Assembly (NCBI GenBank): GCA_009845425.1
Contig: VXZQ01000002.1
Coordinates: forward strand, 162,164-226,163
From: Holophagales bacterium
GTDB lineage: Bacteria > Acidobacteriota > Thermoanaerobaculia > Multivoradales > Multivoraceae
Direction of reading: 5' to 3'
DNA length: 64,000 bases
Under the pieces are notes generated by a model, which saw only the letters and a program-made list of their open reading frames with translations, had not been told where the DNA came from and ran no database searches. Numbering within the stretch: the first letter of the stretch is position 1; each line of letters starts with the position of its first letter. Below, in pieces: positions 21,570 through 37,618 of this stretch. The position numbers were made by a program, and so were the translations under genes.

Positions 21570-22400
21570 CTAGCCGCGAAGCGGTGCGGTCAGTTCGCCG
21601 ACGCGGCGTTCGAGTCGAGCCGCCAGGTCGGGCTCGACGGCGTTCTCCTCGACCAGCCGGACGAGGGCGCTGCCGACGACGACGCCGTGGGCGACCTTCG
21701 CCACTTCCTCGACCTGCCGCGGGGTCGAGATGCCGAAGCCGACGGCGACCGGCAGCCGCACCCGTCGGCGGACGCGCTTCACTTCCCGGGCCAGGGTGGG
21801 GATCAGGTCCTCCCGCTCGCCGGTGACGTCCGAGCGGGCGGTGTAGTAGACGAAGCCGTTCGACGCCGCGGCGGCGCGGTCGATTCGCTCGCGGGTACTG
21901 GTGGCGGCGATCAGGTAGATCGAGTCGAGGCCCCGCTCCTCCAGTGCCGGCTGCAGTTCGCGCAGGCCCTCGTCGGGCGGCAGGTCGACGCAGAGAACGC
22001 CGTCGACACCGCTGTCGGCCGCCTGGGCGGCGAAAGTCCCGACGCCGCGGGCGTGAACCGGGTTGTAGTACGTGAAGAGGACGATCGGGACGCCCAGTTC
22101 CTCGCGGTGCCGCTCCACGATGCCGAGCACGGCGCTGAGCGAGGAACCCGCGGCAAGCGCCCGGTGCGAACCGCGCTGAATGGTCGGGCCGTCGGCGATC
22201 GGGTCGCTGAAGGCGACGCCGAGTTCGATCACGTCGGCGCCGCCGGCAACCAGGGCGCGCAGCAGGTCGGGCGTGGCCTCGAGCGACGGATCGCCGGCGA
22301 CGAGGAAGGGGATGAAGGCGGAGCGCCGCTGCTTCCGGCAGGCGGCGAAGGAAGCGGCGATGCCGCCGTTGCGTGAGGGGCGCTTGCGTCGGGAGCTCAT
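21570..22400 (-). CDS. trpA: Tryptophan synthase alpha chain
   Basis: A 276-residue TIM-barrel protein that cleaves indole-3-glycerol phosphate to indole and glyceraldehyde 3-phosphate, passing indole to TrpB. The catalytic pair is present: E59 in [10 protein letters not shown] and D70 in PIADGPT. The phosphate-binding GFGIST and VVVGSALV are near the C-terminus. ATG 22400 overlaps the trpB stop (ATGA). It is the last gene of the aro-his-trp supraoperon. Confidence 0.97.
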
Positions 22401-23689
22401 TCGGCGTCTCCATCGCCCGACGCGGACCCGGAGTGCCGGCCAGAGGGCCGGCGCACCGACACTCGACCGCCTGAAGCGGCGTCGTACTCGAGTACCGACT
22501 CGACGTCCTTGTCGCCGCGGCCGGAGAGGTTGACCAGGATGACCCGGTCGGGTTCCATTTCGGGCGCCCGGCGCATCACCTCGGCGATCGCGTGCGCCGA
22601 TTCGAGCGCCGGCAGAATGCCCTCCGTCGCCGACAGGAGGTGGAACCCCTCGATCGCCTCCTGGTCGGTCGCGGACGTGAACTCGATCTGCCCGTGTTCG
22701 TGCAGAAACACGTGCTCGGGGCCAACCGCCGGGTAGTCGAGCCCGGCCGACACCGAGTGGGTGCCGACGACCTGACCCTCCTCGTCCTGGAGCACCAGCG
22801 TCCGGGCGCCGTGAAGCACGCCGAGCGTGCCGCCCGAGAATCGGGCCGCGTGATCGCCCAGCTCGGGCCCCCGGCCGCCGGCTTCGACGCCGATGAGCAG
22901 CACGTCCGGACGGTCGAGAAACGCCGAAAACAGTCCCATCGCGTTGCTGCCGCCGCCGACGCAGGCAACCGCCACGTCGGGGTCCGGCGTGCCGGCAAGG
23001 CGCCGCAACTGCCGCCGAGCCTCGGCTCCGATCACGCTGTGGAACTGGCGGACCATACGCGGATAGGGCTCCGGCCCGGTGACCGTGCCGAGCACGTAGT
23101 GGGTGTCCGCGAAGCTCGCCACCCAGTCACGGAACGCCTCGTTGATTGCGTCCTTGAGCGTCTGGCTGCCGGCATCGACCGGCGCCACCTCGGCGCCGAG
23201 GAGCTGCATCCGGTAGACGTTCAGGCGTTGCCGCCGCATGTCCTCCTCGCCCATGTAGACGACGCAGTCCAGGCCGAGGAGCGCCGCCGCGGTCGCGGTG
23301 GCGACGCCGTGCTGACCGGCGCCGGTCTCCGCGATGATCCGCGTCTTGCCCATCTCCTTCGCCAGCAGGACCTGGCCCAGGGCGTTGTTGATTTTGTGCG
23401 CGCCGGTGTGAAGCAGGTCCTCGCGCTTCAGGTAGATGCGGGCTCCGCCCAGGTGCTCCGTCAGCCGTTCCGCGAAGTAGAGCGGCGTCGGGCGTCCGAC
23501 GTAGTGCTCCAGCAGGTGGTTGAGCCGGCGCTGGAAGGTCCGCTTCCGGCGCAGCCTGTCGTAGCAGCGACTCAACTCCTCGAGCGGCGCCATCAGCGTC
23601 TCCGGGGCGTAGCGCCCGCCGTAGACGCCGTAGCGGCCGCCCTCGTCCGGCTCCATGGCCGTGGCGGAGAGGGGTGTCCTTACCTTCAT
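22397..23689 (-). CDS. trpB: Tryptophan synthase beta chain
   Basis: A 430-residue PLP enzyme joining indole and serine. PLP lysine K99 is in [13 protein letters not shown], the active-site Glu in AETGAGQHG, the phosphate cup in [10 protein letters not shown], and the C-terminal NLSGRGDKD is present. ATG 23689 overlaps the trpF stop as ATGA. After the normal end (VLEYDA) there are about 25 extra residues ([19 protein letters not shown]...) that coincide with a palindromic repeat at 22431-22464. Confidence 0.97.
22431..22464. repeat. Palindromic element inside the 3' end of trpB
   Basis: GAGTGCCGGCC-AGAG-GGCCGGCGCACCGACACTC has a 7-bp inner stem (GCCGGCC/GGCCGGC) and outer GAGTG/CACTC complementarity. 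The right half GGCCGGCGCACC matches the element at 6013-6024. It is translated as part of the TrpB C-terminal extension. Confidence 0.65.
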
Positions 23690-24327
23690 CGTGCTGCTCC
23701 CGCTCTGAGGTTGGCGAACAGTCGCTCCAGCTTGGCGCGGTCCTTCCGGCCGGGCGCGGCCTCCACGCCCGAACAGGTGTCCACCGCGTAGGCGCCCGGC
23801 ACCGCCGCAGCCACCGCGGTGACGTTGCCGGGGTGGACGCCGCCAGCGATGAACAGGCGGCGTGGCTCGCGGTCGACGTCCGGTGTCCGGACGAGGTCGG
23901 CCGCGGCGGCGTAGTCCCAGCTCTCGCCGGAGCCGCCGTAGAGGCGTTCGTGGGCGCGGTCGATCAGGATCGCCCAGCAATCCTCGTCAGGGATCGCGGC
24001 CGGGGCCGCGGCGCCGCCGACACGGCGGACGCGGATGGCGCGCTCCCTGAACTCGGCGACCAGCTCCGGGCTCTCATCGCCGCTGAACTGGATGTAGTCG
24101 AGGCCGACCTTGCGGTCGATCGTCTCGAGCTCTTCGCGCGTGGGATCGACGAAGATGCCAACGGTCCGGGCCCGGTCCCCGACGCGGCGCCGGATGTGGG
24201 CCGCCTCGTCGACGTCGATCCAGCGCGGGCTCGGACGATAGAAGTTGAGGCCGATGAAGTCCGCACCCAGGTCGACGGCGAGACGGGCGTCGGCGGGCGT
24301 CGTGACGCCGCAGATCTTGACCTTCAT
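23686..24327 (-). CDS. trpF: Phosphoribosylanthranilate isomerase
   Basis: A 213-residue barrel enzyme converting N-(5-phosphoribosyl)anthranilate to CdRP, the third step of Trp synthesis. The catalytic Cys is in [10 protein letters not shown] (C6) and the Asp in [22 protein letters not shown] is the phosphate site. ATG 24327 overlaps the trpC stop as ATGA, and its stop overlaps trpB. Normal length, monofunctional. Confidence 0.96.
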
Positions 24328-25160
24328 CGGGTCAGCTCCCGGAGCGCCGGCGCACCCAGTAGTTCGGAAAGTGCAGCGGCCGGGTCGCCGGAAAGTACGA
24401 GCCGCTCGCCGATGAGGAACGCGTCGAAACCGGCACGCCGCAACCTGGCCACGTCGGCGCCGGTGTGGATGCCCGACTCGGCCACCTTGAGGGCCGGGGC
24501 CGGCAGGCGGCCGACGCGGTCGGCGCTGCGTTCCAGATCGACTTCGAAGGTGCGCAGGTCGCGGTTGTTGATGCCGACCAGTTCCCAGTCGGAACTCCCT
24601 TCCTCGCCGTCGTCGTGCGCCAGCGGCCGGAGCTTCTCGAAGTCCGCATCGTCGTGGGTCTCGATCAGCGGCACGATCCCGAGGCCGCGGGCAAGCCCGG
24701 CCAGGCGGCGCAGTTCCGCCGCATCGTAGAGAGCCGCGATCAGCAGCACGGCACAGGCGCCGGCGTCGCGCGCCCACGCAAGCTGCACGTCGGAGACGAC
24801 GAAGTCCTTCGCCACCGCGGGCAGCCCGGACGCGGCCGCGCACTCGGCCAGCAGGTCGTAGCCCCCGTGAAAGTGGTCCGGCTCGACGACGACCGACAGG
24901 CAGGCCGCCCCGGCATCCGCGTAGGCCACGGCGCGGGCGACCGGATCGAAACGGCCGCGCAGGTCGCCCAGCTTGGGCGAGCCCATCTTGATCTCGGCGA
25001 TCACGGCATCGCCGCGACGCTCGGAGATCGCATCGAGGAAGCGGCGGCCCGGAGCCCCGGCTGACAGACGCCGTACGGACGATACGCCCGCGTCTCCGGC
25101 GGCCACGCGCCGGCGCCGCTGCTCGCAGATGCGCCTCAGGATGTCGGGAACCTCAGCCAC
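24324..25160 (-). CDS. trpC: Indole-3-glycerol phosphate synthase
   Basis: A 278-residue barrel that cyclises CdRP to indole-3-glycerol phosphate. Motifs: AVIAEIKMGSPKLGDL (catalytic Lys; family usually KxxSPS), SVVVEPDHFHGG, AVAKDFVVSDVQL (second Lys), GINNRDLRTFEVDL and VAESGIHTGADV. It starts at GTG 25160, 3 bp after the trpD stop: one of the few junctions in the operon without overlap. The last residues (LLGAPALREL) coincide with a GCCGGCGCACCCA repeat-like stretch (24346-24358). Confidence 0.96.
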   Translation of the reverse strand: MAEVPDILRRICEQRRRRVAAGDAGVSSVRRLSAGAPGRRFLDAISERRGDAVIAEIKMGSPKLGDLRGRFDPVARAVAYADAGAACLSVVVEPDHFHGGYDLLAECAAASGLPAVAKDFVVSDVQLAWARDAGACAVLLIAALYDAAELRRLAGLARGLGIVPLIETHDDADFEKLRPLAHDDGEEGSSDWELVGINNRDLRTFEVDLERSADRVGRLPAPALKVAESGIHTGADVARLRRAGFDAFLIGERLVLSGDPAAALSELLGAPALRELTR

Positions 25161-25163
25161 GCT

Positions 25164-26196
25164 TCAGTCTCCGCCGCCTCCGTCGTCCCAGCCGGTCCAG
25201 TCGACGAGTTCTGCGAGCTTGGCGGCCGCCGCGCCCGAAGCCTGAACCTCGGACGCCGCCGCGACACCTGCCGCGAGGTTCTCCGCCCTGCCCGCTACGT
25301 AGAGCGCGGCCCCGGCGTTCAGGCGAGCGATGTCGGCCAGCGGCCCTCCCCCGCCGCCCAGCACGCCCCGCATCAGTTCGACGTTCCGCTCCGGGTCGCC
25401 GCCGGCCAGCGCTTCGGCCTGCGCCTCGGCGATGCCGAAGTCGCTCGGCCGGACTTCGTACGTCCTGACCTCGCCGTCGCGGACTTCGGCGACCGCGGTC
25501 GGCCCCGTCGTCGTCATCTCGTCCAGGCCGTCACCGTGAACGACCAGGGCGTGCTCGCTGCCGAGCTCGAGCAGCACCCGCCCGATCGGCTCGACGAGGT
25601 CGGGCGAGAAGACGCCGATCAACTGGCGCTTCGCCCCCGCCGGGTTCGTCAGGGGTCCCAGCACGTTGAACAGGGTGCGCACGCCCAGCTCCTTCCGCAC
25701 CGGCATGACCTGGGCCATCGCCGGGTGGAGCATCGGCGCGAAGAGGAACACGATGCCGACCTCGTCCAGGCAGCGTCCCAGGGCCTCCGTGTAGCCGGAG
25801 AGCCTCACGCCGAGCGCGGCCAGAACATCGGCCGAGCCGGACCGGCTCGACACCGCCCGGTTGCCGTGCTTGGCGACCGGGGCGCCGCCCGCCGCCGCGA
25901 CCAGCGCGGCCGCGGTCGAGATATTGAAGGTGCCGCGGCCGTCACCACCGGTGCCGCAGGTGTCGATCACGCCGGAACTCGAGTGCTCGACCCGGGCGGC
26001 TCGTGCCCGCATCGCCCGGGCGGCGCCGGCGATCTCGCCGACCGACTCCCCCTTCGCCGCCAGCGCGACGAGGAACGCGCTCTTCCACACCTCGGAGAGT
26101 TCGCCGTCCATCAGGCGACCGAACAGCTCCTCCACGGTCTCTGACGGGAGTTCCTCGCCGGCGATCGCCGTTCGCAGCAGAGCCGAAAGGTCGAGA

Positions 26197-26204
<8 letters not shown>
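25164..26204 (-). CDS. trpD: Anthranilate phosphoribosyltransferase
   Basis: A 346-residue enzyme transferring phosphoribose from PRPP to anthranilate. The PRPP site is GVIDTCGTGGDGRGTFNIST, followed by AKHGNRAVSSRSGSADVLAALG, and FAPMLHPAMAQVMPVRKELGVRTLFNVLGPLTNP completes the anthranilate tunnel. ATG 26204 has GAGG 6 nt upstream; it overlaps the trpG stop by 8 bp. An upstream GTG or ATG at 26216 is less likely. Confidence 0.97.
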
Positions 26205-26771
<567 letters not shown>

Positions 26772-26775
<4 letters not shown>

Positions 26776-28265
26776 GCCCGGCCCTCCAGCTCGCGCGCCA
26801 GCGCCACCGCACGCAGCAGGGCCGCGGCCTTGTCACGCGTCTCCTGCGCCTCGCGCACCGGATCCGAGTCGGCGACGATGCCGCCCCCGGCGGTGATCGA
26901 AGCCTCGCCGTCGACGAGCGCCAGGGTGCGGATCGTGATGCAGGTGTCCATGTCGCCGCCGAACGAGAAGTAGCCGACCGATCCGCCGTACATGCCGCGC
27001 GCCTCCGGCTCCAGCTCGTCGATGATCTCGACCGCGCGGATCTTCGGCGCTCCCGAGAGGGTGCCGGCCGGGAGGCAGGCCAGCAGGGCGTCGAGCGCCG
27101 AACCCGCGCCGTTGCCGACGCCCGCCGCCTGCTCCGCCTCGACCGAGCTGACGATGTGCATCACGTCGCTGTAGTGCTCGATCACCATGAAGTCCTCGAC
27201 CGAGACCCCGCCTGGAGATGCCACCCGGCCCAGATCGTTGCGACCGAGATCGACGAGCATCACATGCTCGGCGCGCTCCTTCGGGTCCGCCATCAGCTCC
27301 TCGGCCAGCGCCCGGTCTTCCACGGGCGTGCGGCCACGCGGTCTGGTGCCGGCGATCGGCCGCATCTCCAGGCGGCGCCCCGTCCGGCGCACGAGCATCT
27401 CGGGCGAAGCGCCGATCAGCGACACCTCGGGCGACTCGAACAGCACCATGTAGGGCGACGGGTTGACCAGGCGCAACGCCCGATAAACGGTCGTCAGCGG
27501 CACGTCGAGATCGAGCGCCCAGCGACGCGCGAGCACGACCTGGAAAATGTCGCCGGCGGCGATGTACTCCTTCGCCGCATTGACGACCCCGAAGTACTCT
27601 TCGTCGCTCAGGGTGGGGTCGGCGGTCCTTGCCTTGAGCCCCCTGTCCTCGACCCGCGCCGCTACCGCCTCGCCCCGGCTCTCGAGCACCGACTGCAGCA
27701 CGTCGAGCCGGGCTTCCGCGTCGGCGGCGGTGTTCTCGCCCTCGATCTCGTTCGCCACCGCGACGATCCGCTGGCGGGCGTGGTCGAACACGAGGATGTC
27801 GTCGTAGCGGGCGAGGATGGCGACGGGCAGGCCGAAGGGATCCGGCGGCCGGCCGGCCGGATGGTCGACGAGACACGTCTCGGCGAGACGAATCGCGTCG
27901 AAGCCGAAAGCGCCGATCCAGCCGCCCGCGAACGGCAGCGGCGGCGCGGGATCGGCGGTCACGCCGTCGAGCAGCTTCCGGAGCCGGGGCAACGGATCCC
28001 CCGTCTGGACCCGCACGCCGCAGCCGTTGCGGAGATCCTCGATCTCGAGCCGGTCCAGGTACACGCGGCACACCTGGGACGGGCTGGCGCCGAGGAAGCT
28101 GTAGCGCGACACGTGCTCGCCGCCGGTGACGCTCTCGAGCAGGAAGCGCCGCGCGGACGCATCGCCATCGGCGTGGGCAGCCAGCTTGCCGTAGACCCCG
28201 AGCGGGGTCGAGGTGTCGGCGAGAAACTCCCGGGTGTGGGCAATGGCCCCGGCGGCCCGGCTCAT
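26772..28265 (-). CDS. trpE: Anthranilate synthase component I
   Basis: A 497-residue chorismate-utilising enzyme. FLLESVTGGEHVSRYSFLG near residue 40 contains the LLES motif that forms the tryptophan feedback site, so allosteric inhibition is expected. The catalytic core includes RPIAGTRPRGRT, ELMADPKERAEHVMLVDLGRNDLGRV, VMHIVSSVEA, CLPAGTLSGAPKIRAVEIIDELEP and ITAGGGIVADSDP. ATG 28265 overlaps hisIE by ATGA, directly joining the his and trp blocks. Confidence 0.97.
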
Positions 28266-28915
28266 GACGGCACTCTCCCCGCTTCCTGGTGACGGTGGCC
28301 GAGTTCGGCCGCGACGTCGGCGAGTTCGACGCCCGTCGCCTGCAGCAGGACCAGCACGTGGTACGCGAGGTCGGCCACTTCCGCGGCAAGGTCGCCGCGG
28401 CGTTCGGTGGACTCCGGTTCCGCATCCGCGCGGATGCCGGCGATCACGGTCTCCCCCGCCTCCTCCGCCACCTTGCGGGCGATCCGGTCGACTCCCTGGC
28501 CGAGCAGGCGTGCGGTGTAGCTCTCGTCCGGCGCCGCGGACGCCCGCTCTGCGAGCACCCGACGCAGCCAGCCGAGCTCGAACTCGGCAACGTTCGGTTC
28601 GAAGCAGCTCCGCGTGTAGAGGTGGCAGGCCGGCCCCGCCGGCAACACCCGCACCAGCAGGGCGTCCCGGTCGCAGTCCTGAAGCACCTCGACGACCGCC
28701 AGCGTGTTGCCGGAAGTCGCGCCCTTGCGCCAGAGCTCCTGGCGGGACCGGCTGTAGAAGTGGGCCTGACCGGTCTCGAGTGTCTTCTCGACCGCCTCGC
28801 GGTTCGCGTAGGCGAGCATGAGCACCGCCCCCGACAGGACGTCCTGCACCACGACCGGCAGCAGACCCCGGTCGTCGTAGGTGAGCGCCGCCGGGTCGAT
28901 CGTTGTCTTCGTCAC
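28262..28915 (-). CDS. hisIE: Bifunctional phosphoribosyl-AMP cyclohydrolase / phosphoribosyl-ATP pyrophosphatase
   Basis: A 217-residue fusion for steps 2 and 3 of histidine synthesis. HisI part, about 1-112: [55 protein letters not shown] and [12 protein letters not shown] (metal-binding Asp/Cys residues). HisE part, about 118-205: [24 protein letters not shown] helix with EE/D residues and [17 protein letters not shown]. It starts at GTG 28915, overlapping the hisF stop as GTGA. Confidence 0.96.
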
Positions 28916-29721
28916 CTGCTTGCTCCTGTCTGAATGCGGATCGGATAGCGCCGGCCGAGATACTCCTTGACGGCGCCCACGGAGTACGTCTCCTGGTGGA
29001 AGATCGAGGCGGCGAGGACAGCGGCGGCGCCCGTTTCCAGGGCATCGGCGAGATGCTCCAGGGTGCCCGCGCCCCCCGAGGCGATCACCGGCACGGGCGA
29101 AAGCGCGGACGCCCGGCGCAGCAACTCCAGGTCGTAGCCCGCCTGCGTGCCGTCACTGTCGATGCTGGTCAGCAGGATCTCCCCGGCGCCGCGCTCGATC
29201 CCTTCCTCGATCCACTCCAGCGCATCGAGCCCGGTCGGAGTGCGGCCGCCGTGGGTGACGACCTCCCAGGTCTGGTCCTCGGCACCGGCCGGCTCCCGGC
29301 GCTTTGCGTCGACGGAGAGCACGACGCACTGGCTGCCGAAGCGCTCGGCGAGGCGGGTGAGCAGTTCCGGTTCGGCGACCGCGGCGGTGTTGATCCCCAG
29401 CTTGTCCGCGCCGGCGAGGAGCAAATTGCGGCCGTCATCGACGCTGCGCACGCCGCCGCCGACGCTCAGGGGAATGAACACCTGCTCGGCGGTCCGGCGC
29501 ACCCAGTCGAGGTCCGTGTCGCGACGCTCGGGCGCCGCGGTGATGTCGAGGAAGACGATCTCGTCGGCACCCTCCGCCGCGTAGCGCGCCGCCGCCTCGG
29601 TCGGGTCGCCCTGATCGGTCAGGTTCCTGAACTGGACCCCCTTCACCACGCGGCCGGCCGCCACGTCCAGGCAGGGGATGATCCGGCGCGTCAGGCCGGT
29701 CGGCTCGATGGTGGCTCTCAT
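28912..29721 (-). CDS. hisF: Imidazole glycerol phosphate synthase cyclase subunit
   Basis: A 269-residue barrel that closes the imidazole ring using ammonia from HisH and releases AICAR. It begins [20 protein letters not shown] (catalytic D19) and carries [12 protein letters not shown] and [21 protein letters not shown] (second Asp) plus [16 protein letters not shown] 29721 overlaps hisA (ATGA). [14 protein letters not shown] segment lengthens the loop before the [11 protein letters not shown] strand. Confidence 0.96.
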
Positions 29722-30458
29722 GAAGCCCTCCCGCAGGCGGCAATCGCATCCTCCAGGCGGAGCGAACCGTCGTAGAGCGCCCGGCCCACGATCGCGGCTT
29801 CGATCCCGGGCCGCCGCGCCGCGGCTTCCAGATCGGCCGCTGAACGCACCCCGCCCGAGAGGATCGCCGGCGCGCCGGCCAGGTCGCCGATCCGGCAGGC
29901 GAGGTCGATGTTCGGGCCCTGCATCATCCCGTCGCGCGAGATGTCGGTCACGAGGACCGCGGCCACCGGCAGATCGGCGAGCTGAGCGCAGAGCGCGGCC
30001 GGCGAACGGTCGGCCGACTCGGTCCAGCCGGCGAGCCGGACCTCGCCGCCGTCGATGTCGAGCGCCGCCACCATGCGTTCGGGGTACCGGCGGCAGAGAT
30101 CGGCGAACACGTCGAACTCGCGGACGATGAGCGAGGTCACGACGGTCCGCTCGCAGCCGGCCGCGAAGGCCCACTCGACCGCCTCGCGGTCCCGCAGGCC
30201 GCCGCCGAGCTGGATGCCGCCGCGACCGTTCGGGGACTCCTCTGCCTGCCGCGCGAGCTCCTGGACGACATCGCGCTGGGGCGGGCCACCGAACGCCGCG
30301 TCCAGGTCGACGACGTGGATACGGGCGACACCGGCTTCGCGGTAACGGCGGAGCGCGCTGCCCGGATCGGCGTCATAGACGGTGCGCCGCCGGTCGTCGC
30401 CGCGCATAAGGCGCACGACCTGGCCGCCACGCAGATCAATGGCCGGAAGCAGTTGCAC
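29718..30458 (-). CDS. hisA: Phosphoribosylformimino-AICAR ribotide isomerase
   Basis: A 246-residue barrel. GTG 30458 is chosen: it has GGAGG 5 nt upstream and gives the family's exact opening ([21 protein letters not shown]); TTG 30473 would only add TEEPV. Catalytic Asp in PAIDLRGG (D8) and in [15 protein letters not shown]; phosphate sites [10 protein letters not shown] and [11 protein letters not shown]. It overlaps hisH by 23 bp, the longest overlap in the operon. Confidence 0.96.
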
Positions 30459-31101
30459 TGGTTCCTCCGTCAATCCCGGCGGCCAGATCGCCGGCCCAGC
30501 TCAGGTAGTTGCTCAGCAACCGCAGGCCCGCAGCGCCGCTCTTCTCAGGGTGGAACTGGGTGCCGGCGATCCGCCCGCGGCCCGTGATCGCCGGGAAGCT
30601 GCGGCCGTGCCGGCAACGCCCGAGCACCCACTCCTCCGGCACGTCCTGTGGTGCGAAGGAGTGGACGAAGTAGTAGTGGTCGTCGTTCGTGGCGCCCTCG
30701 AGCAGGGGGTGGTCCTTGACCGCGAAGACGCGGTTCCAGCCGATGTGGGGCAACGGCACACCGCCGGGTAGCTCGGTGACCCCACCGGGGAGCAGGGCAA
30801 GGCCGTCCGTGGTCCCGAACTCTTCGCTGCTGTCGAACAGGAGCTGGTAGCCGATGCAGATGCCGAGCAGCGTGGCGCCGTCGTCGAGCGCGGCGCGCAT
30901 GGCCTCCTCGGGCGCGCCGCGCAGGACCTCCCGCGGCGGTCGGAAGGCACCGACCCCCGGCAGCACCAGGCAGCGGGAGGCACGAATCGTCGCCGGGTCG
31001 CAGGTGATCTCGACCTTGGCGCCCAGGTGCCGGAGCGCCCGCACCAGGTTGCCGATGTTGCCGACCCCGGCGTCGATCACGGTCGCTTCCGTGCCGGTCA
31101 T
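30436..31101 (-). CDS. hisH: Imidazole glycerol phosphate synthase glutaminase subunit
   Basis: A 221-residue class I amidotransferase partner of HisF. Nucleophile C82 in LLGICIGYQLLFDSSEE; His/Glu dyad in GTQFHPEKSGAAGLRLLSNYL; early IDAGVGNIGNLVRAL. ATG 31101 overlaps the hisB stop as ATGA. A short Gly/Ser-rich tail ([13 protein letters not shown]) extends past the normal end, within the hisA overlap. Confidence 0.96.
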   Translation of the reverse strand: MTGTEATVIDAGVGNIGNLVRALRHLGAKVEITCDPATIRASRCLVLPGVGAFRPPREVLRGAPEEAMRAALDDGATLLGICIGYQLLFDSSEEFGTTDGLALLPGGVTELPGGVPLPHIGWNRVFAVKDHPLLEGATNDDHYYFVHSFAPQDVPEEWVLGRCRHGRSFPAITGRGRIAGTQFHPEKSGAAGLRLLSNYLSWAGDLAAGIDGGTSATASGH

Positions 31102-31697
31102 GCGGTGAGACTCCCCTTCGTGCTCGGCACCTCGGCAACCGCCCCGGCCCGAAGCGACACCGCGTCGCGCAGCGCGAGAGCCACCGCCTTGAAGGCGGCT
31201 TCGGCCACGTGGTGCGGGTTACGGCCGCAGAGCACGTCAAGGTGCAGCGTCAGCCGGCCGCGGTCGGCGAGGGCGCCGAAGAAGTCGCCGACCAGGGTGA
31301 GCGGGAACTCGGTCGTGACCCAGGCCTGCTCGAGGTCCGGCGGCAGCCGGAGGTGGAAGGCGCCCCGGCCGGAGAGGTCGACCACGGCGCGCGCCAGCGC
31401 CTCGTCGAGCGGGGCGAAGGCGTGCGCAAAGCGGCGCACCCCGGCGCGGTCACCCAGAGCCTCCCGGAGAGCGTCGCCGAGCACGATCCCGGTGTCCTCC
31501 ACCGTGTGGTGGAGGTCGATCTCGACATCGCCGCGGGCTTCGAGGTCGAGCCCCAGGCCGCCGTGGCGCGTCAGCGCGTCCAGCATGTGGCTGAAGAACC
31601 CGTTCGGAGTATCGATCCGGCGGGTTCCACCGTCCAGCGACAGGTCGGCGCGAATCTCGGTTTCGGACGTCTTCCGCTCGACCGACGCTGTTCTCAT
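31098..31697 (-). CDS. hisB: Imidazoleglycerol-phosphate dehydratase
   Basis: A 199-residue monofunctional enzyme (no phosphatase domain). It carries the two manganese-binding HH-x-x-E repeats (DLHHTVEDTGIVLG and GRNPHHVAEAAFKAVALALR) and FFSHMLDALTRHGGLGL. ATG 31697 overlaps the hisC stop (ATGA). A separate histidinol-phosphatase is not in this window. Confidence 0.97.
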   Translation of the reverse strand: MRTASVERKTSETEIRADLSLDGGTRRIDTPNGFFSHMLDALTRHGGLGLDLEARGDVEIDLHHTVEDTGIVLGDALREALGDRAGVRRFAHAFAPLDEALARAVVDLSGRGAFHLRLPPDLEQAWVTTEFPLTLVGDFFGALADRGRLTLHLDVLCGRNPHHVAEAAFKAVALALRDAVSLRAGAVAEVPSTKGSLTA

Positions 31698-32788
31698 GCC
31701 TCGCCTCCTGAAGTTGACGCCAGCATCTCCGCCAGGGCGCGCCGGGTCGCACGCAGGGCCGGCCCGGCGCCGATTCCGATCCGCATGCAGTTGGCGAGTC
31801 CCGGGTAGCGGCTCACGTCCCGGACCAGCACGCCGACCGCCGCCAGACCGTCGCGGATCTCGGTACAGCGCGGATGGCGAGCGAGCAGGAAGTTCGCTTC
31901 CGAGTCGAAGACCTCGAAGCCGAACTCCCGGAGCATGACTGCCCACTGCTCCCGCCGCGCCCGCACGACCGCGACCCGGCGCGGGAAGCGGCCGGCGTGT
32001 TCCAACGCCACCTCGCCGATGACGGCCGCGGCGTGCCCGACGTTGTAGGCCAGTTTGACCTTGATCAACTGCGCGACGAGCTCCGGCGCGGCGAGCAGGT
32101 AGCCAAGACGGATGCCGCCCAGGGACCAGGCCTTGGACAGGGTCCGGAACAGGACGACGTTCGGGTTCGCCCGCAGCAACGGCCGGTAGTCGTGGCGGCA
32201 GAACTCGCCGTAGGCGTTGTCGAGCAGAAGGGCCGCTTCCAGGGACCGCGCCAGACGCTCCACGGCTTCGCGATCAGCCGCCGCGCCGGTCGGGTTGTTC
32301 GGTGTGCACAGGAGCACCGGCCGGCGCGGGTCGCGGTCGACCTCGGCCTGGAGCTCGTCCATCTGCAGGCCCAGGTCGGGAGCCGGAGGCAGGTGCCGCG
32401 GCACGCCGGCGGCGCGGCCGACGAACGTCCTGTAGGGGCTGAAGCTCGGATCGCAGATGAGCACTTCCTGACCGGGGCGGACGACTCCCTCGAGCACGGT
32501 CGTGAGGAGTTCGCCGGAACCGTTACCCACCAGGACGCCCTCCATGGGCCACTCGTGCAGGTCGCCGATCAGCCGGCGCAGCCGGTCGGCGTGAAAGTCC
32601 GGGTACTCCGACCAGGGCCGGGCAGCCAGCCGGGCCAGCGCCTCCCGCTTGAGCGACCTCGGCAGGTCCCAGGGCGCCTCGTTCTGGTCGAGCTTGTAGC
32701 GGGCCTCGACCTGGTGCAGCGAGTAGAGAGACAGGTCGCGCACCTCCGGCCGCACCAGGGCCGCCGCCCGCTCGGCGCGGCCGCTCAT
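31694..32788 (-). CDS. hisC: Histidinol-phosphate aminotransferase
   Basis: A 364-residue fold-type I aminotransferase. PLP lysine K219 is in RTLSKAWSLGGIRLGYLLA; other markers are KLDQNEAPWDLP, VGNGSGELL, CTPNNPTG, LLLDNAYGEF and the C-terminal MRIGIG. ATG 32788 overlaps the hisD stop (ATGA). It may also act on aromatic amino acids, as some HisC do. Confidence 0.96.
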   Translation of the reverse strand: MSGRAERAAALVRPEVRDLSLYSLHQVEARYKLDQNEAPWDLPRSLKREALARLAARPWSEYPDFHADRLRRLIGDLHEWPMEGVLVGNGSGELLTTVLEGVVRPGQEVLICDPSFSPYRTFVGRAAGVPRHLPPAPDLGLQMDELQAEVDRDPRRPVLLCTPNNPTGAAADREAVERLARSLEAALLLDNAYGEFCRHDYRPLLRANPNVVLFRTLSKAWSLGGIRLGYLLAAPELVAQLIKVKLAYNVGHAAAVIGEVALEHAGRFPRRVAVVRARREQWAVMLREFGFEVFDSEANFLLARHPRCTEIRDGLAAVGVLVRDVSRYPGLANCMRIGIGAGPALRATRRALAEMLASTSGGEA

Positions 32789-34185
32789 CGCCTGGTCTCC
32801 CGGCCGTCGGACCCGCGACGCAGCGCGGCCGCCGCGGCATGGGCGGACAGACCCTCCGTCGTCGCCAGTGTCTCGGCGGCGCCGGCCCAGGCTGCCGCGG
32901 CCTCGGCGGAGAACCGGACGGTGTGGCTTCGCCGCAGGAAGTCCTCGGTGCCGAGGCCGGAAGCAAAGCGCGCGCTGCCGCCCGTGGGCAGCACGTGGCT
33001 GGGACCGGCGACGTAGTCACCGAACACGACCGGGGACGACGCGCCGACGAACACCGCGCCGGCGTTCCGGACCTCGCCGGCCCTCTCCTCGGCCGCCTCG
33101 CCCATCAACTGCAGATGCTCCGGGGCGATGCGCTCGGCGAGAGCGATCGCCTCGTCCAGGTCGGCGACGACGAAGGCCACGCCGTACCGCTCGAGGGCCG
33201 CCACGGCCGTTTCAGCGGTCGGCAGGTCCGCGAGCCGCGAGTCGACCTCACGGCCGACGCTCTCCGCGAGTTCGGCGGAGTCGGTGACCAGGACCGCGAC
33301 CGCCAGCGGATCGTGTTCCGCCTGCGCCAGCAGGTCGGCGGCGACGCACTCAGCCGGAGCGCCGGCGGTGGCGACGATGACGACCTCGGACGGCCCGGCG
33401 TCCCGGTCGATACCGACATCCGCCGCGACGTGCTGCTTGGCCGCCGCCACCCAGGCGTTGCCCGGGCCCGCGATCAGATCGACCGGGCGGATCGACTCGG
33501 TGCCGTAGGCCAGCGCCGCGACCGCGTGGGCCCCGCCCATGCCCCACACCTCGTCCACTCCGACCAGGTCCAGAACGTGCCGCAGCACCGGGCTGTCCCG
33601 ATAGGCCCGGGGCGGCGTGGCGACGACGATCTCCTCGACACCGGCGAGCCGGGCCGGCACCGCGGTCATCAGCACGGTCGACGGATAGGGGAAGCGGCCG
33701 CCTGGCAAGTAGAGGCCGACCCGGCGGACGGCGAGGCGACGCTCCTCGATCCGGACGCCGTCCCGGTCGACGCGTTCCACGCCGGGCCCACGCAGGAGTA
33801 CGCGGTGATACGCCTCGATCGCGCTCCGGGCGCGTTCGATGGCGGCGAGTACCGGCGGCTCGACCTCATCGACGGCTGGAGCGGAGCCGGCCTCGCGGCC
33901 GGCGCGTTTCCCGGCCGCCTTCGGCGGCAGCGGGTCAGAAGACCCGCGCACCGACAGGCGGAGGAGGTCCGTTGTCCCTGCCTCGTAACCGTCGAAGCGA
34001 CGCACTGCCTCGAGCAGGGCGGCGTCGCCGCCGGCCCGGACCTGGTCCACGATCTCCGCTGCCGCCTGGCGGATCTCCGCCGCGATGCCGCCGCGGCCCC
34101 GGCGGTCAAGGAGTTCCAGGCGTTCCCGTCCGGCGAAACTCCCGGCGTCGAGGACCCGAAGCGCGCTGCCGCCTACTTCACTCAC
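32785..34185 (-). CDS. hisD: Histidinol dehydrogenase with an in-frame repeat-derived insert
   Basis: A 466-residue zinc enzyme performing the last two oxidations of His synthesis. Present: GLYLPGGRFPYPSTVLMTAVPARLAGV, WGMGGAHAVAALAYGTESI, VDLIAGPGNAWVAAAKQHV, GPSEVVIVA, LLAQAEHDPLAVAVLV and ERIAPEHLQ (catalytic Glu/His), and GDYVAGPSHVLPTGGSARF. Residues about 77-98 (RGSSDPLPPKAAGKRAGREAGS) are unusual: they are encoded by a palindromic repeat inserted in frame. GTG 34185 overlaps hisG by 8 bp. Confidence 0.95.
   Translation of the reverse strand: MSEVGGSALRVLDAGSFAGRERLELLDRRGRGGIAAEIRQAAAEIVDQVRAGGDAALLEAVRRFDGYEAGTTDLLRLSVRGSSDPLPPKAAGKRAGREAGSAPAVDEVEPPVLAAIERARSAIEAYHRVLLRGPGVERVDRDGVRIEERRLAVRRVGLYLPGGRFPYPSTVLMTAVPARLAGVEEIVVATPPRAYRDSPVLRHVLDLVGVDEVWGMGGAHAVAALAYGTESIRPVDLIAGPGNAWVAAAKQHVAADVGIDRDAGPSEVVIVATAGAPAECVAADLLAQAEHDPLAVAVLVTDSAELAESVGREVDSRLADLPTAETAVAALERYGVAFVVADLDEAIALAERIAPEHLQLMGEAAEERAGEVRNAGAVFVGASSPVVFGDYVAGPSHVLPTGGSARFASGLGTEDFLRRSHTVRFSAEAAAAWAGAAETLATTEGLSAHAAAAALRRGSDGRETRR
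33895..33955. repeat. Palindromic element inserted in frame in hisD
   Basis: Two stacked hairpins: a GGCCGG...CCGGCC palindrome (about 33897-33916) and the exact 18-nt core GCGGGTC-AGAA-GACCCGC at 33930-33947, identical to the core of the intergenic element at 5986-6007, followed by GCACCGACAG. It is read through without a stop in the HisD frame. Confidence 0.7.
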
Positions 34186-34816
34186 CGCCGGTCTCCGTCT
34201 CTTCGAGTGCGCCGAGCAGGCCGCTCAGCCGCCGGCGGTGGGCGTGAAACGACGCCCGGTTGACGACGAACGTCGGGGCCACGGCCGCGAGCACCTCGAC
34301 TTCGTGCAGGTCGTGGGCCCGGAGCGTGCCACCGGTCTGAACGATGTCCACCGCCACGTCGGTCAGATCGAGCAGCGGTCCAAGTTCGATCGAGCTGGTG
34401 AGGTGGATCACCTCGACGTGGAGGTTCCGGGCGGCCAGCAGCCGTGCCGCCCAGGTCGGATAGCGGGTCGCCGCGCGGAGCTGGCCGCTCCGCTTCGGCA
34501 ACTCGGGAGTCTCGGCGATCAGGGACAGGCGGCTCCTGCCGCCCTTCAGCTGAAGCGGCCGGAAGACGTCGGGCTGGGTCTCCTCGAGCACGTCCGAGCC
34601 GACGATCGCGCAGTCGACGATCCCGTGCTCGACGTAGAGCGGCAGGTCCCAGTCCTTGAGCAGCAGCACCTCGACCGGAGTCCCCAGGACGCTCTGGTCG
34701 GGGAAACGCTGGCGCAGCCGCGAGGAGTCGAGGCCGTCGAGGTTCAGTCCCGCGGCCGCGAGGGCCGCGCGCGCGGGGCCCAGGTTCCGCCCCTTGGGCA
34801 GGCCAATCGTGATCAT
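34178..34816 (-). CDS. hisG: ATP phosphoribosyltransferase, short form
   Basis: A 212-residue HisG of the short type, lacking the C-terminal regulatory domain. It catalyses the first step, ATP plus PRPP, and depends on HisZ for activity and His feedback. Motifs: ITIGLPKGRNLGPA, YVEHGIVDCAIVGSDVLEE, ATRYPTWAARLLAARN, and the PRPP loop AVDIVQTGGTLRAHDL. ATG 34816 overlaps hisZ by ATGA, matching the need for a 1:1 complex. Confidence 0.96.
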   Translation of the reverse strand: MITIGLPKGRNLGPARAALAAAGLNLDGLDSSRLRQRFPDQSVLGTPVEVLLLKDWDLPLYVEHGIVDCAIVGSDVLEETQPDVFRPLQLKGGRSRLSLIAETPELPKRSGQLRAATRYPTWAARLLAARNLHVEVIHLTSSIELGPLLDLTDVAVDIVQTGGTLRAHDLHEVEVLAAVAPTFVVNRASFHAHRRRLSGLLGALEETETGGE

Positions 34817-35817
34817 GACCGCGCCTCCGCGACGCCGAGTTCCAGCAGCAGGTCGAGACCGAGCGAGAAGCCGACCGCCGAGCAATCGCCGCTGAGCGAC
34901 CGGAACACCTTGTCGTAGCGGCCGCCGACGCCGAGGGCCAGGGCGGTCCCCGGCGCGTAGGCGGCGAACATCAGGCCGTCGTAGTAGCCGCGCGGGCCCG
35001 AGCCGACACCGATGCGCGGGTCGAGGGCCGCGGCGGCGAACTCGGCGAGGTCGACCTCGATCTCGACGGCCGCGTCGCGATACGCGGAGGACAGCCGGTC
35101 GCGCAGAGCGAGCAGTTCGAACACGGCCTCTCCCGTGCCGCCCAGCACCGAGAGGTCAGTCGGGTAGCCGCGTTCGACGACCTCGGCCAGACCGGCCCGG
35201 CGCGCCGCGATCCGGTCGCGGCTGGCGATGCGCAATGCGAGGTCGGAGGCTTCGTGTTCGCCGGCGGCGGCCAGCAGAGCCTCGTCGAGCGCTCCGGCCA
35301 CGCCGAGCACCACGCGCAGGGCATGCTCCTCGCCGTCGACGACCGCGGGGGCCTCCCCGCGCGCCTCGAGCAGCAGGTCGAAGAACAGGGTCAACATCTG
35401 CTCGTCCGCTTCGGCCTCGTCGCCACCGAGGAGCTCCGCGCCCAACTGGGAGTACTCGCGCATCCTGCCCGGCCGCAAGGGCTGGTGACGCACGACATCG
35501 CCCCGGTAGTAGAGGCGCAGCGGCAGCTCCAGTTCGTCCAGGTGGGGCGCCAGTAGCCGCGCCAGCATCGGCGTGAAGTCGCCCCGCAGCACGAGAAGCT
35601 GACCGTCCCGGTCCACGAAACGGTAGAGCTGCTCCAGTCGTCGCCCCGTCAGCAACGGCCGGTACGGCTCGAAGTAGTCGAGGATGGGGAGGAGGACTTC
35701 GGCAAAACCGCGCTCCTCCAGCAGCGCGGAAAGCCGCGCCTCAAGCCGGCGGCGCCGCCTGGCGCTGTCGAACAGGGCGGCCGAGACTCCGGTCGGCAAG
35801 CCGGCGGAGATCTTCAT
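34813..35817 (-). CDS. hisZ: ATP phosphoribosyltransferase regulatory subunit
   Basis: A 334-residue class II HisRS-like protein without aminoacylation motifs. Readable landmarks: FAEVLLPILDYFEPYRPLLTGRRLEQLYRFVDRDGQLLVLRGDFTPMLARLLAPHL (motif 1/2 region) and YYDGLMFAAYAPGTALALGVGGRYDKVFRSLS near the end. It binds short HisG and carries the histidine feedback site. ATG 35817 overlaps the aroDE stop (ATGA). Confidence 0.95.
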   Translation of the reverse strand: MKISAGLPTGVSAALFDSARRRRRLEARLSALLEERGFAEVLLPILDYFEPYRPLLTGRRLEQLYRFVDRDGQLLVLRGDFTPMLARLLAPHLDELELPLRLYYRGDVVRHQPLRPGRMREYSQLGAELLGGDEAEADEQMLTLFFDLLLEARGEAPAVVDGEEHALRVVLGVAGALDEALLAAAGEHEASDLALRIASRDRIAARRAGLAEVVERGYPTDLSVLGGTGEAVFELLALRDRLSSAYRDAAVEIEVDLAEFAAAALDPRIGVGSGPRGYYDGLMFAAYAPGTALALGVGGRYDKVFRSLSGDCSAVGFSLGLDLLLELGVAEARS

Positions 35818-37355
35818 CGACACATCTCCAGGCCCAGGGCGGCGGCACCGACCTCGAAGGGCAGGGCCGTTCCGGTCATCGCCTTGAACTGCGAGAGCCC
35901 CTGGTGCAGGAGGACCTCGCGGCCGCCGACCACCATCAACCCCCTGGCCGCCAGCGCGCGGCTCCAGGGTGTTGGGCCGCCGCCGTAGACCAGCTCGACC
36001 GCGGCCGCCGAGGCTCGAAGCCCCGCCGGGTCGCAGGGCAGCGGATCGTCGGCCCGGTGACCGAGAGAAGTCGCGTTGACGATGATGTCGAAGTCGCCGG
36101 GCACCAGTTCTTCGAGCGGCACGAAGGCGAGGCCGAGCGACTCCGCGGCAGCCAGTCCCGTCGACTCCGTGCGGTTGGCGAGTGCCACCCGGGCGCCGGC
36201 CGCGGCCAGACCGAGCGCGGCGGCTCGACCGGCGCCGCCGGCGCCGATGACCACCGCCTCGCGGTCCTCCAGAGCGATGCCGCCTCGGCGGAGCGGACCC
36301 ACAACCCCCTCGGGATCCGTACTCTCCGCCCTCCATCGCGTGGCCGCGGCGCCATTCCGGCATGGCAACAGCGTGTTCGCGCCCTGCGTCCCGCGCGCCA
36401 GGTCCCCCGCCTCGGAGGCCGCCGCAAGGGCCGCCGCCTTGTGGGGCGCGGTCACGCTCAGGCCGGAGAGCGGCAAGCCCGCGCGGTCGAAGAAGTCGGA
36501 GAGAGCGACCTCGCGCCAGAAAGTCTCGAAGCTCGGCGCATCGAAGGCGACGTAGAGAGCCTCCTCGCCGCGGTCGCTGTAGCCCGCGTTGTGGAGCCTG
36601 GGCGACAGGCTGTGCGCCGCCGGGTGGCCGACGACGCCGAACAGCCGCGATGCGCGACGGAGGTTCGGGAGGCCGTAGTCGACCCGCAGCCGCTCCACGG
36701 GCGGCTGACCGGGCGCCGCGGCCAGCGGTCCGGCGGCGCCGTAGACCCACGGTGCGCCGAGACGCGGCGCCACCAGCCGGGTCCAGGCGCCGATGGCGCC
36801 CATCGAGAAGGCGGCGACGTCGCCCCGGCCCGCGCCGAGAAGCAACTCGAGCGGCACCAGCTCCTCGCCGGAGCGCTGTGCCTCGGTCACCAGCTTGTAA
36901 AGCCGCGCCTCCACCCCGGAAACCTGTCTCAAGCGGCCCCGCAGGACCTTCAGGTTCCGCGCCCGACCGTGCCACGACACCAGGCGACGCCGGGGCTCGA
37001 CAACGTCCAGAACGGCCCTGCCGAGATCGCGGTCCGCCTCGATGTCAACGAAGTCATATCCGCGTGCCGCGGAAAGCAGCGCCGCCCGGCGCTCCGGCTC
37101 AACGGTGCCCCGACCGCCTTCCGCTTCGCTCCGCAGCGTGTAGAGAAGCTCTCCGGCGAAACGCTCCCGCAACCAGTCGACGCCGATATCGCCGACCAGA
37201 TCCGCCCGCACCTCGAGGCAGTCCGCCAGCTCCGAGAGAGCGCGCACCTCGTCGCCGGACGCGCTGGGCGCCTCGGTCAACGACGCCACCAAGGTCGCAG
37301 TCGCTGCGGCCTCCGTAGGGGTGGCGATCCGGGGTTCGTCGATTGTCGGGTTCAA
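35814..37355 (-). CDS. aroDE: Bifunctional 3-dehydroquinate dehydratase (type I) / shikimate dehydrogenase
   Basis: A 513-residue fusion for shikimate steps 3 and 4. DHQ dehydratase part (about 1-222): LEVRADL, LLYTLRSEAEGG, catalytic His in RLVSWHG (H129), Schiff-base Lys in ARLYKLVTEA (K154), AFSMGAIGAWTRL and AAAPGQPPV. Shikimate dehydrogenase part (about 238-513): FGVVGHPAAHSLSPRLHN, SVTAPHKAAAL (catalytic Lys), GANTLLP, TDPEGV and VIGAGGAGRAAALGLA. I chose TTG 37355 because the frame upstream runs through the terminator hairpin, and AAGGAGGT lies 9 nt before the TTG; GTG 37400 is the alternative. First enzyme gene of the supraoperon. Confidence 0.9.
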   Translation of the reverse strand: MNPTIDEPRIATPTEAAATATLVASLTEAPSASGDEVRALSELADCLEVRADLVGDIGVDWLRERFAGELLYTLRSEAEGGRGTVEPERRAALLSAARGYDFVDIEADRDLGRAVLDVVEPRRRLVSWHGRARNLKVLRGRLRQVSGVEARLYKLVTEAQRSGEELVPLELLLGAGRGDVAAFSMGAIGAWTRLVAPRLGAPWVYGAAGPLAAAPGQPPVERLRVDYGLPNLRRASRLFGVVGHPAAHSLSPRLHNAGYSDRGEEALYVAFDAPSFETFWREVALSDFFDRAGLPLSGLSVTAPHKAAALAAASEAGDLARGTQGANTLLPCRNGAAATRWRAESTDPEGVVGPLRRGGIALEDREAVVIGAGGAGRAAALGLAAAGARVALANRTESTGLAAAESLGLAFVPLEELVPGDFDIIVNATSLGHRADDPLPCDPAGLRASAAAVELVYGGGPTPWSRALAARGLMVVGGREVLLHQGLSQFKAMTGTALPFEVGAAALGLEMCR

Positions 37356-37392
37356 AACGGGAAGACCTCCTTCGATCCGGAAGGAGGTCTTC
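37353..37392 (-). terminator. Attenuator terminator hairpin before aroDE
   Basis: On the transcript, GAAGACCTCCTTC (37392-37380), a 6-nt loop CGGATC, then GAAGGAGGTCTTC (37373-37361) form a perfect 13-bp stem, followed by CCGTTTTG. The U run is short (four), so termination strength is uncertain. The 3' arm contains the AAGGAGGT Shine-Dalgarno for the TTG start at 37355, so the folded stem would also block translation. Confidence 0.75.
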
Positions 37393-37404
37393 TCGCTCAC
37401 CCTC

Positions 37405-37428
37405 GTCCCGGACCGTGCGTACCGGGAC
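37405..37428 (-). promoter_or_regulatory. Upstream attenuator hairpin
   Basis: GTCCCGG (37428-37422) pairs perfectly with CCGGGAC (37411-37405) across a 10-nt loop. An alternative exists: GCCAGG at 37433-37428 can pair with CCUGGU at 37471-37466, which contains the first Trp codon and the first base of the second. A third, AGGUC at 37430-37426, can pair with GACCU in the terminator 5' arm (37389-37385). These options exclude each other, as expected of an attenuator; which one dominates was not computed. Confidence 0.6.
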
Positions 37429-37439
37429 CTGGCCCGGGT

Positions 37440-37544
37440 TCAGCCCTTGCCGTGACCGTGAGCCCACCAGGAAGTCGCGACAACCCCAGTCGCAGGAGCG
37501 ACGGAGACGGCGACGAGCGCGAAGATGCTGTCCGGTGAGTTCAT
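37440..37544 (-). CDS. 34-residue leader peptide with tandem Trp and alternating His codons
   Basis: ATG 37544 opens 34 codons ending at TGA 37440. The last ten residues are SWWAHGHGKG: two adjacent Trp codons (37469-37464) and two His codons (37460-37458 and 37454-37452) just before the stop, 48 bp ahead of the terminator stem. This is the layout of ribosome-stalling leader peptides such as TrpL and HisL, with both amino acids represented, matching the his and trp genes downstream. No good Shine-Dalgarno precedes the ATG, the main weakness. Too short for standard gene callers. Confidence 0.8.
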   Translation of the reverse strand: MNSPDSIFALVAVSVAPATGVVATSWWAHGHGKG

Positions 37545-37589
37545 GACGCGGTGCGGGCGGAACGGGCCGGAATGGCTCCGGGACGCCGG

Positions 37590-37618
37590 ATACTGCACCG
37601 GAAGGTGCGGACTGTCAA
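37590..37618 (-). promoter_or_regulatory. Putative sigma-70 promoter of the aro-his-trp supraoperon
   Basis: A consensus -35 TTGACA (37618-37613), a 17-bp spacer and a -10-like CAGTAT (37595-37590) point towards the leader peptide. Transcription would start near 37583, about 39 nt before the leader ATG. The -35 is perfect; the -10 matches only three of six positions. It is the only strong promoter-like signal seen ahead of the 17-gene block. Confidence 0.6.

Follow-up and report, generated by a model that had tools for sequence, protein, structure and literature searches.

Among the attenuators known in enterobacteria, the Escherichia coli thr (threonine and isoleucine) and ilvGMEDA leaders are bivalent or multivalent, one peptide serving more than one amino acid, and the amino acids they sense belong to connected pathways, while the model of the his leader includes a chain of RNA segments resembling that seen in the locus reported here. 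The HisL attenuator is described in sections of PMC10989985, whose reference list also holds a title on attenuation in the thr leader. For actinobacteria, trp leaders with double or triple UGG codons and, in the same paper, Shine-Dalgarno-sequestering hairpins (ileS T-boxes) are presented in parts of Seliverstov et al. (2005, PMC1262725), which saw no conserved RNA structure ahead of actinobacterial histidine operons; PMC4833913 cites a conference paper whose subject is His-containing leader peptides of Actinobacteria. In Acidobacteria, among other groups, premature terminators have been predicted, almost none of them with an associated function in the portions of the survey available (Naville and Gautheret 2010, PMC2965389). 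Here we analysed a stretch of 64,000 nucleotides (nt) of a Holophagales bacterium (phylum Acidobacteriota; contig VXZQ01000002.1), called the window, to which all coordinates below refer. On the minus strand at 37618-37353 it carries a putative leader-peptide attenuator with both tryptophan (Trp, W) and histidine (His, H) codons, ahead of an operon of shikimate, His and Trp genes, aroDE-hisZGDCBHAF-IE-trpEGDCFBA; shortage of either amino acid would probably stall the ribosome on the leader and switch this operon on.

Structure and recurrence of the leader

An initial annotation of the window had interpreted this region as an attenuator, previously unannotated, whose leader peptide combines Trp and His and which controls an aro-his-trp supraoperon, and this reading is supported by the comparison of related genomes. 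The promoter, the 34-codon open reading frame (ORF) ending in SWWAHGHGKG and the 7 bp and 13 bp hairpins that it had reported were confirmed base for base. The promoter is of the sigma-70 type as read in the sequence (TTGACA at 37618-37613, a 17 nt spacer, CAGTAT at 37595-37590), and the ORF (37544-37440) has 34 codons followed by TGA and encodes MNSPDSIFALVAVSVAPATGVVATSWWAHGHGKG. Beyond it lie the 7 bp hairpin GUCCCGG/CCGGGAC (37428-37422 / 37411-37405) and the perfect 13 bp hairpin with arms GAAGACCUCCUUC and GAAGGAGGUCUUC (37392-37380 / 37373-37361), then CCGUUUU, the CCG sitting between the 13 bp stem and the U-run. Folding of the 161 nt region was better than that of 198 out of 200 dinucleotide shuffles (z -2.72). 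The elements of the locus are as follows.

37590..37618, minus strand: promoter TTGACA-17-CAGTAT (sequence reading and a permissive scan of 30 leaders)
37440..37544, minus strand: leader peptide ORF, 34 codons plus TGA, with the putative sensing tail WWAHGHGKG (translation; ORF in 20 of 21 genus members)
37433..37437, minus strand: segment A (CCGGG), 5' arm of A:B, which a ribosome at the stop codon would mask (A:B folds in all 30 leaders)
37422..37428, minus strand: segment B (GUCCCGG), predicted partner of A or C (folding and covariation)
37401..37411, minus strand: segment C (CCGGGACGAGG), predicted partner of B or D (B:C paired in 94.3% of cells; permutation test of C:D)
37380..37392, minus strand: segment D, 5' arm of the terminal hairpin, with the anti-Shine-Dalgarno CCUCC (pairing with C uses 37387-37377)
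37361..37373, minus strand: segment E, 3' arm of the terminal hairpin, holding the Shine-Dalgarno sequence GGAGG at 37370-37366 (sequence reading)
37354..37357, minus strand: UUUU, a weak U-run overlapping the start codon (4-U run in only five of 20 genus members)

AroDE is present in 131 of 148 genomes of the class. The order was sampled with 72 genomes, of which 45 outside the window's genus have AroDE; the upstream region was scanned in 44 of them (G039 left out) and 38 were inspected in print. A leader ORF was found ahead of aroDE in 23 order genomes outside the genus and, with aroDE lying elsewhere, ahead of hisZ in six more, which together with the window makes an order-level set of 30 leaders from 19 genera. 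In this set, first gathered partly by a W/H pattern, the last 13 residues include W in 27 and H in 29 of the 30 leaders, even where the tails have diverged (WWGFVHHHVE, WWHGVHHHGR, WWLRVHHHTT, WWRGVHHHGNR, WWWHGHAHSKA, LHWHHWTHN, WRRSGHHHVVS). His is encoded in the last 13 codons by CAT 54 times and by CAC 42 times, a mixed usage indicating that the residue rather than the base is kept. Within the window's genus the ORF was found in 20 of 21 genomes, and 17 of these 20 share the same final ten codons, counting the stop; G070 has one W codon rather than two. Retention of the ORF and of its W/H codons, on which the initial annotation had staked its reading, is what the relatives mostly display, the exceptions mostly losing codons along with the matching genes. 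On comparative sequence evidence, the recurrence of this layout beyond chance is confirmed by the 30 leaders in 19 genera and by the covarying helices described below.

A permissive scan, run with no shuffled control, placed TTGACA with a 17-18 nt spacer and a -10-like hexamer 5' of 29 of the 30 leaders, the thirtieth being cut by a contig end. In seven genomes of family f3 and in one of f8 (G085; loci L030, L031, L033, L039, L054, L070, L071 and L072 in all) the ATG of the leader lies only 9-11 nt past the -10 hexamer, and for this reason their leader mRNAs are probably leaderless.

Predicted helices and output

Downstream of the leader codons the RNA is predicted to form four mutually exclusive helices in series, A:B, B:C, C:D and D:E, as shown by sequence and comparison. 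A:B and B:C can form in all 30 leaders, A beginning within a few bases of the stop codon, although A:B of the window has only 5 bp (-8.4 kcal/mol). C:D lies at a common position, 23-33 nt past the stop, in all leaders but that of G057, and a D:E hairpin is readable in each of the 30, short or imperfect in some (the genus g3 of the G043 type, G058 and G059). In alignment A1, in which segment A of the window is one column out of register, A:B and C:D together are paired in 86.8% of cells with 16 double-change cells, and B:C and D:E together in 90.5% with 32; taken singly, B:C is paired in 94.3% of cells and D:E in 88.1%, with double changes at eight of its 11 pairs. For both helix pairs the paired share, the number of double-change cells and the covariation score were reached by none of 500 shuffles and by no slid version, and two weaker measures of A:B plus C:D were matched by one and 33 of 500 shuffles, counts that are not probabilities as the sequences are related. 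C:D pairs at -17.7 kcal/mol with its own partner versus -15.7 with permuted ones, and none of 5000 permutations was as good, also with one leader per genus (0/5000). Some changes running through arms C, D and E together were read from the alignment, for example in G025 (GAUC) and G085 (GAGC/GCUC).

Two pairings drawn in the initial annotation fared less well. That of the first Trp codon, CCUGGU:GCCAGG, can be drawn in the window and may act there, but is neither conserved nor covarying, unlike the four helices above: when the final 45 coding nt were allowed to pair in any way with the 16 nt at the stop, own sequences gave -15.3 and permuted ones -15.0 kcal/mol, 1004 of 5000 permutations were as good (823 of 5000 when each genus was represented by a single leader), and there was no common position. 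The pairing of AGGUC with the terminator arm (AGGUC:GACCU) was rejected as a general anti-terminator, being interrupted in G069, which lacks one G of AGGUC, and, as read from the alignment, lacking AGGUC at the corresponding site in leaders from other genera; a better drawing of the anti-terminator is CCGGGACGAGG:CCUCCUUCCGG. A long-range helix GCUCAC:GUGAGC in the window was likewise discarded, as its 3' side changes within the genus by inspection.

With Trp and His plentiful, the ribosome would reach the stop codon and cover A, B:C and D:E would form, and the Shine-Dalgarno sequence would be hidden; where a U-run follows D:E, this replete state would also end transcription. A ribosome stalled at any W or H codon would leave A free, whereupon A:B and C:D would form and E with its Shine-Dalgarno sequence would stay open, so that the peptide would act as an OR gate for two pathways on one transcript. 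We modelled the position of the ribosome by hiding the RNA up to 12 nt past the first base of the A-site codon and folding the remainder to arm D at equilibrium, which places competition with arm E and co-transcriptional kinetics outside the model. At the stop codon, with A covered, B:C had a mean of 8.2 pairs and C:D of 3.5 pairs; on stalling, the mean for C:D was 8.0 pairs at the first Trp, 7.5 at the first His and 6.5 at the last His codon. Relative to the stop, C:D gained more than one pair in 18 of 27, 18 of 29 and 17 of 29 leaders, respectively. Folding with ribosome stalls, as the initial annotation had suggested, thus predicts a switch in about two-thirds of the leaders, G030 and G060 being examples in which it is clean, the window's own not being one of them.

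Regarding the output, the aroDE Shine-Dalgarno sequence GGAGG (37370-37366) is buried inside arm E and the predicted TTG start codon follows 10 nt later. Nineteen of 20 genus leaders have a TTG just past the hairpin; its frame is open to the end of the excerpt in 18 of them and amounts to a 17-codon ORF in G082, and none was found in G081. G024 and G025 have the hairpin and the Shine-Dalgarno sequence and no U-run. Where aroDE is absent, a mini-ORF from the hairpin overlaps the inferred hisZ start by ATGA or GTGA in G024, G025, G054 and G056 (by script) and in G055 and G057 (read by eye), which argues that the translation start at the hairpin is in use. As the buried Shine-Dalgarno sequence and the start codon are kept in the genus and the U-run is not, output there would be mainly translational and, taken by itself, a translational output in the window's lineage is rather probable; for other families, where a strong U-run occurs besides the hairpin, mixed control of translation and termination is favoured. 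The 13 bp hairpin of the initial annotation therefore stands, whereas its UUUU terminator is set off by CCG and variable in the genus, and given the burial of the Shine-Dalgarno sequence the output may be translational instead or as well. Termination at D:E and its U-run by the same dual leader, with the buried Shine-Dalgarno sequence incidental, concerns the last step only and deserves to be kept in mind, even if we doubt it: by script, 18 of the 30 order-level leaders have at least four U following this hairpin's arm E, a count which credits the window's spaced UUUU and misses the UUUU of G033 and G057, and all 11 aligned leaders of family f10 have at least five U, but in the genus the run is offset from the stem and seldom reaches four U, the TTG follows the Shine-Dalgarno sequence almost throughout, and G024 and G025 do without a U-run altogether.

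Codon content and operon content

Across the order, sequence and comparison show the predicted codon content of the leader to track the content of the operon. In all 15 order genomes outside the genus with trp linked behind his on one contig (G022-G027, G031, G035, G055, G059-G062, G084 and G089), W occurs near the stop. In all four in which trp is demonstrably split off (G091, G056, G057 and G021) there is no W near the stop and H is present, the tails being VVVHHHPVI, DLVHHHKMT, RGVHHHHGMS and GGMHHRHGP, respectively; the single W of G057 lies 27 codons ahead of the stop. Their genus or family sisters with linked trp (G022, G055 and G089) retain W, and no W-only leader was seen before the split-off trp genes of the four genomes. 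These counts cover genomes whose linkage is readable on contigs, omitting G029, G030, G034, G054, G058, G063, G085 and G090 (linkage unreadable) and the his-less G028, G032, G033 and G045, and they are not independent events, the genomes being related and the four H-only cases amounting to three genera. The eight genomes of unreadable linkage all carry W and H.

HisD was found in 49, HisB in 47 and TrpA in 68 of the 72 order genomes, and His synthesis seems to have been lost in several lineages of the order, many bins being incomplete. Among the his-less genomes, the tail of G045 (PVWWCVRSRS) has no H and that of G032 (CWRGRAQHRLS) has one, where its genus sisters G030 and G031 have three. Of the 18 genomes of family f4, 16 lack HisD, and a leader precedes aroDE in G045 only. 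HisD and HisB are missing, with TrpA mostly present, in G028, G032, G033, most of G036-G053, G086 and G087, which belong to several separate families and include some incomplete bins.

The genes behind the leader in the window are the following.

35814..37355, minus strand: aroDE (dehydroquinate dehydratase/shikimate dehydrogenase), predicted TTG start at 37355
34813..35850, minus strand: hisZ, TIGR00443 match below the curated cut-off
34178..34885, minus strand: hisG
32785..34185, minus strand: hisD
31694..32788, minus strand: hisC
31098..31697, minus strand: hisB, inside ORF 31098-31946, start approximate
30436..31101, minus strand: hisH
29718..30473, minus strand: hisA
28912..29697, minus strand: hisF, inside ORF 28912-30174, start approximate
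28262..28915, minus strand: hisIE
26772..28218, minus strand: trpE (PF00425, PF04715), domain part of ORF 26772-29045, the span giving the domains rather than the true start
26197..26775, minus strand: trpG
25164..26216, minus strand: trpD
24324..25160, minus strand: trpC
23686..24321, minus strand: trpF, inside ORF 23686-24843, start approximate
22397..23584, minus strand: trpB, inside ORF 22397-23980, start approximate
21570..22400, minus strand: trpA

Just 3' of trpA, an ORF of 349 amino acids (20172-21221, minus strand) fuses a diphthamide-synthase-type domain (PF01902) to an AraC-type DNA-binding domain (HTH_18), an odd combination.

Wider family, alternative explanations and known systems

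A covariance model (R1) was built from the RNA beginning at the stop codon and therefore contained no leader codons; at E <= 0.01 it had matches in 75 of 147 genomes of the class. Twenty further matches were examined, namely 18 of the 25 listed outside the order and G021 and G023 within it, and in 16 of them an in-frame ORF stops no more than 5 nt from the model start and has three or more W, H, tyrosine (Tyr, Y) or phenylalanine (Phe, F) residues among its last ten, a level which base-shuffled tails of those 16 reach in 6%, the four matches without such an ORF being left out of this control. In G136 (family f17) the tail HWHAHHN precedes aroDE-hisZGDCBHAF-IE-trpGDCFB, up to the contig end. 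In family f10, HWWWHGRR and WWWPSSE precede aroDE, and Tyr/Phe-rich tails (YYYGYFT, FYYGYYT, YYYGFYT; loci L136, L137, L139, L141, L144 and L145) precede chorismate mutase (aroQ), with DAHP synthase (aroF) next where the stretch reaches; gene names in f10 come from sequence similarity, those of aroQ and aroF also from reading translated ORFs. Judged from these sequences, there seems to be a class-wide family of aromatic/His attenuators, the Trp/His leader being one of its settings. We are inclined to think that one RNA scaffold serves as a re-addressable attenuator throughout the class, in which the helix chain and the buried Shine-Dalgarno sequence would stay while the last ten codons are rewritten to suit the operon (W and H for aro-his-trp; H only if trp leaves; W only after loss of his; Y/F ahead of chorismate mutase and DAHP synthase; Y and W, with or without H, when all are joined), the output in the window's lineage having drifted from termination to translation start.

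In a search of the phylum, the order model matched 36 of 396 genomes at E <= 0.001, seven of them outside the class; at six of these seven matches no ORF of eight or more codons had its end 15 nt or less from the model start, and the seventh (G286) had two, neither rich in W/H/Y/F. The f10 model matched 52 of 396 genomes. Of 27 loci examined, the six without an ORF among them, five look real, four in the class (G014, G008, G007 and G019) and one outside it (G469, with FYRWWWYRCGCRG before aroDE). Matches left aside include weak order-model ones in G048 and G088 and seven of the 25 outside the order, although one of these seven, G008 C193, was seen with the 27. A weak second match in the window's own genome (G000 C15) had no leader when the stretch was read.

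Several observations weigh against a dual Trp/His attenuator as set out above. The comparison genomes are largely metagenome bins, many of them incomplete. The rule that the hairpin is not kept without the ORF, implied in the initial annotation, holds mostly, with two exceptions: G068, a genus member, keeps the terminal hairpin and aroDE behind unrelated upstream sequence with no leader ORF, and G046 (L058), which lacks both HisD and HisB, has a similar Shine-Dalgarno hairpin before aroDE and no leader ORF. Single-sequence shuffles favour C:D only modestly (mean z -1.0; at most ten of 200 shuffles as good in six of 30 leaders), and the case for this helix lies in its common position and the permutation test rather than in those shuffles. 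In the masked model, stalling lowers C:D by more than one pair in two of 27 (Trp), three of 29 (first His) and four of 29 (last His) leaders; the window's leader shows no switch, having 4.1 C:D pairs at the stop versus 0.7-3.4 when stalled, and its C:D, when forced, lies 2.7 kcal/mol above the optimum, a result that competition by E or folding kinetics could rescue or sink. The last 45 coding bases yielded no conserved partner for A, and therefore an untranslated leader would default to on, unlike that of the E. coli trp operon. As to the codons, the his-less G028 and G033 keep two H each (WRSHVHLLGA, where sister G029 has three, and CWWRRAHIHAG) and are weak support at best for a match of codons and genes, while G113 (L157), outside the order, is a clear exception, its aroDE-hisD-trpE-trpG standing behind a His-only leader, RHHHHGPPRR, with no W.

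In G068 (L008 / L024) an unrelated and apparently coding sequence takes the place of the leader, and the matches to aroDE, hisZ and hisG are fragmented; rearrangement, decay or an assembly fault would each account for this.

Three other explanations of the element were considered. It might answer to Trp only or to His only, the codons of the other amino acid being chance passengers; since the tail DNA within the genus carries no synonymous change and is identical in most members, selection on RNA and on codons cannot be separated there, but W and H recur across genera with differing codons and spacing, and each is reduced or lost separately as the matching genes leave, so we regard this as unlikely. 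The hairpins kept in G068 and G046 in spite of the missing ORF fit a constitutive terminator or insulator that separates aroDE from the upstream gene, the ORF being fortuitous; such an arrangement is highly improbable given a promoter upstream of the ORF, covariation along the series of helices, and an RNA-only model that leads to ORFs of this kind at 16 of the 20 additional matches examined. Least probable by far is a tRNA-sensing T-box or a metabolite riboswitch, for although the element precedes amino-acid biosynthesis genes, none of 4227 Rfam families, the enterobacterial his and trp leaders and the T-box included, reaches its gathering score anywhere in the window, and what is conserved is an ORF with regulatory codons and a chain of local hairpins.

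A leader peptide responding to both Trp and His would assign a function to an attenuator of a phylum for which one survey, in the portions available, had assigned almost none (PMC2965389). Two pathways that are usually controlled apart appear to share one sensor reading both end products on one peptide, which suggests that the supply of His and Trp is co-managed in these uncultured bacteria. The related genomes serve as natural experiments, in which genes leave the operon and the matching codons vanish, so that the specificity of a leader can be watched as it evolves. A literature search covering few subscription journals found no leader peptide with both Trp and His; the putative Trp/His OR gate in Acidobacteriota would be new as a form of leader-peptide attenuation, bivalent leaders themselves being already known.

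Compared with described systems, the actinobacterial trp leaders resemble the window's in their adjacent UGG codons and differ from it in their GC-rich terminators with U-tracts, as far as the available parts of PMC1262725 go. The HisL and TrpL attenuators of Salmonella and E. coli share with the present locus an own promoter, a short ORF with regulatory codons near its stop, exclusive hairpins and a terminal hairpin before the operon, but each senses one amino acid, whereas here Trp and His are combined, the Shine-Dalgarno sequence lies in the terminal hairpin, segment A lies past the stop codon and there is no Rfam match. The thr and ilvGMEDA leaders likewise apply OR logic to one peptide; unlike in these, the pathways brought together at the locus described here are those of His and of the aromatic amino acids including Trp, joined in one transcript.

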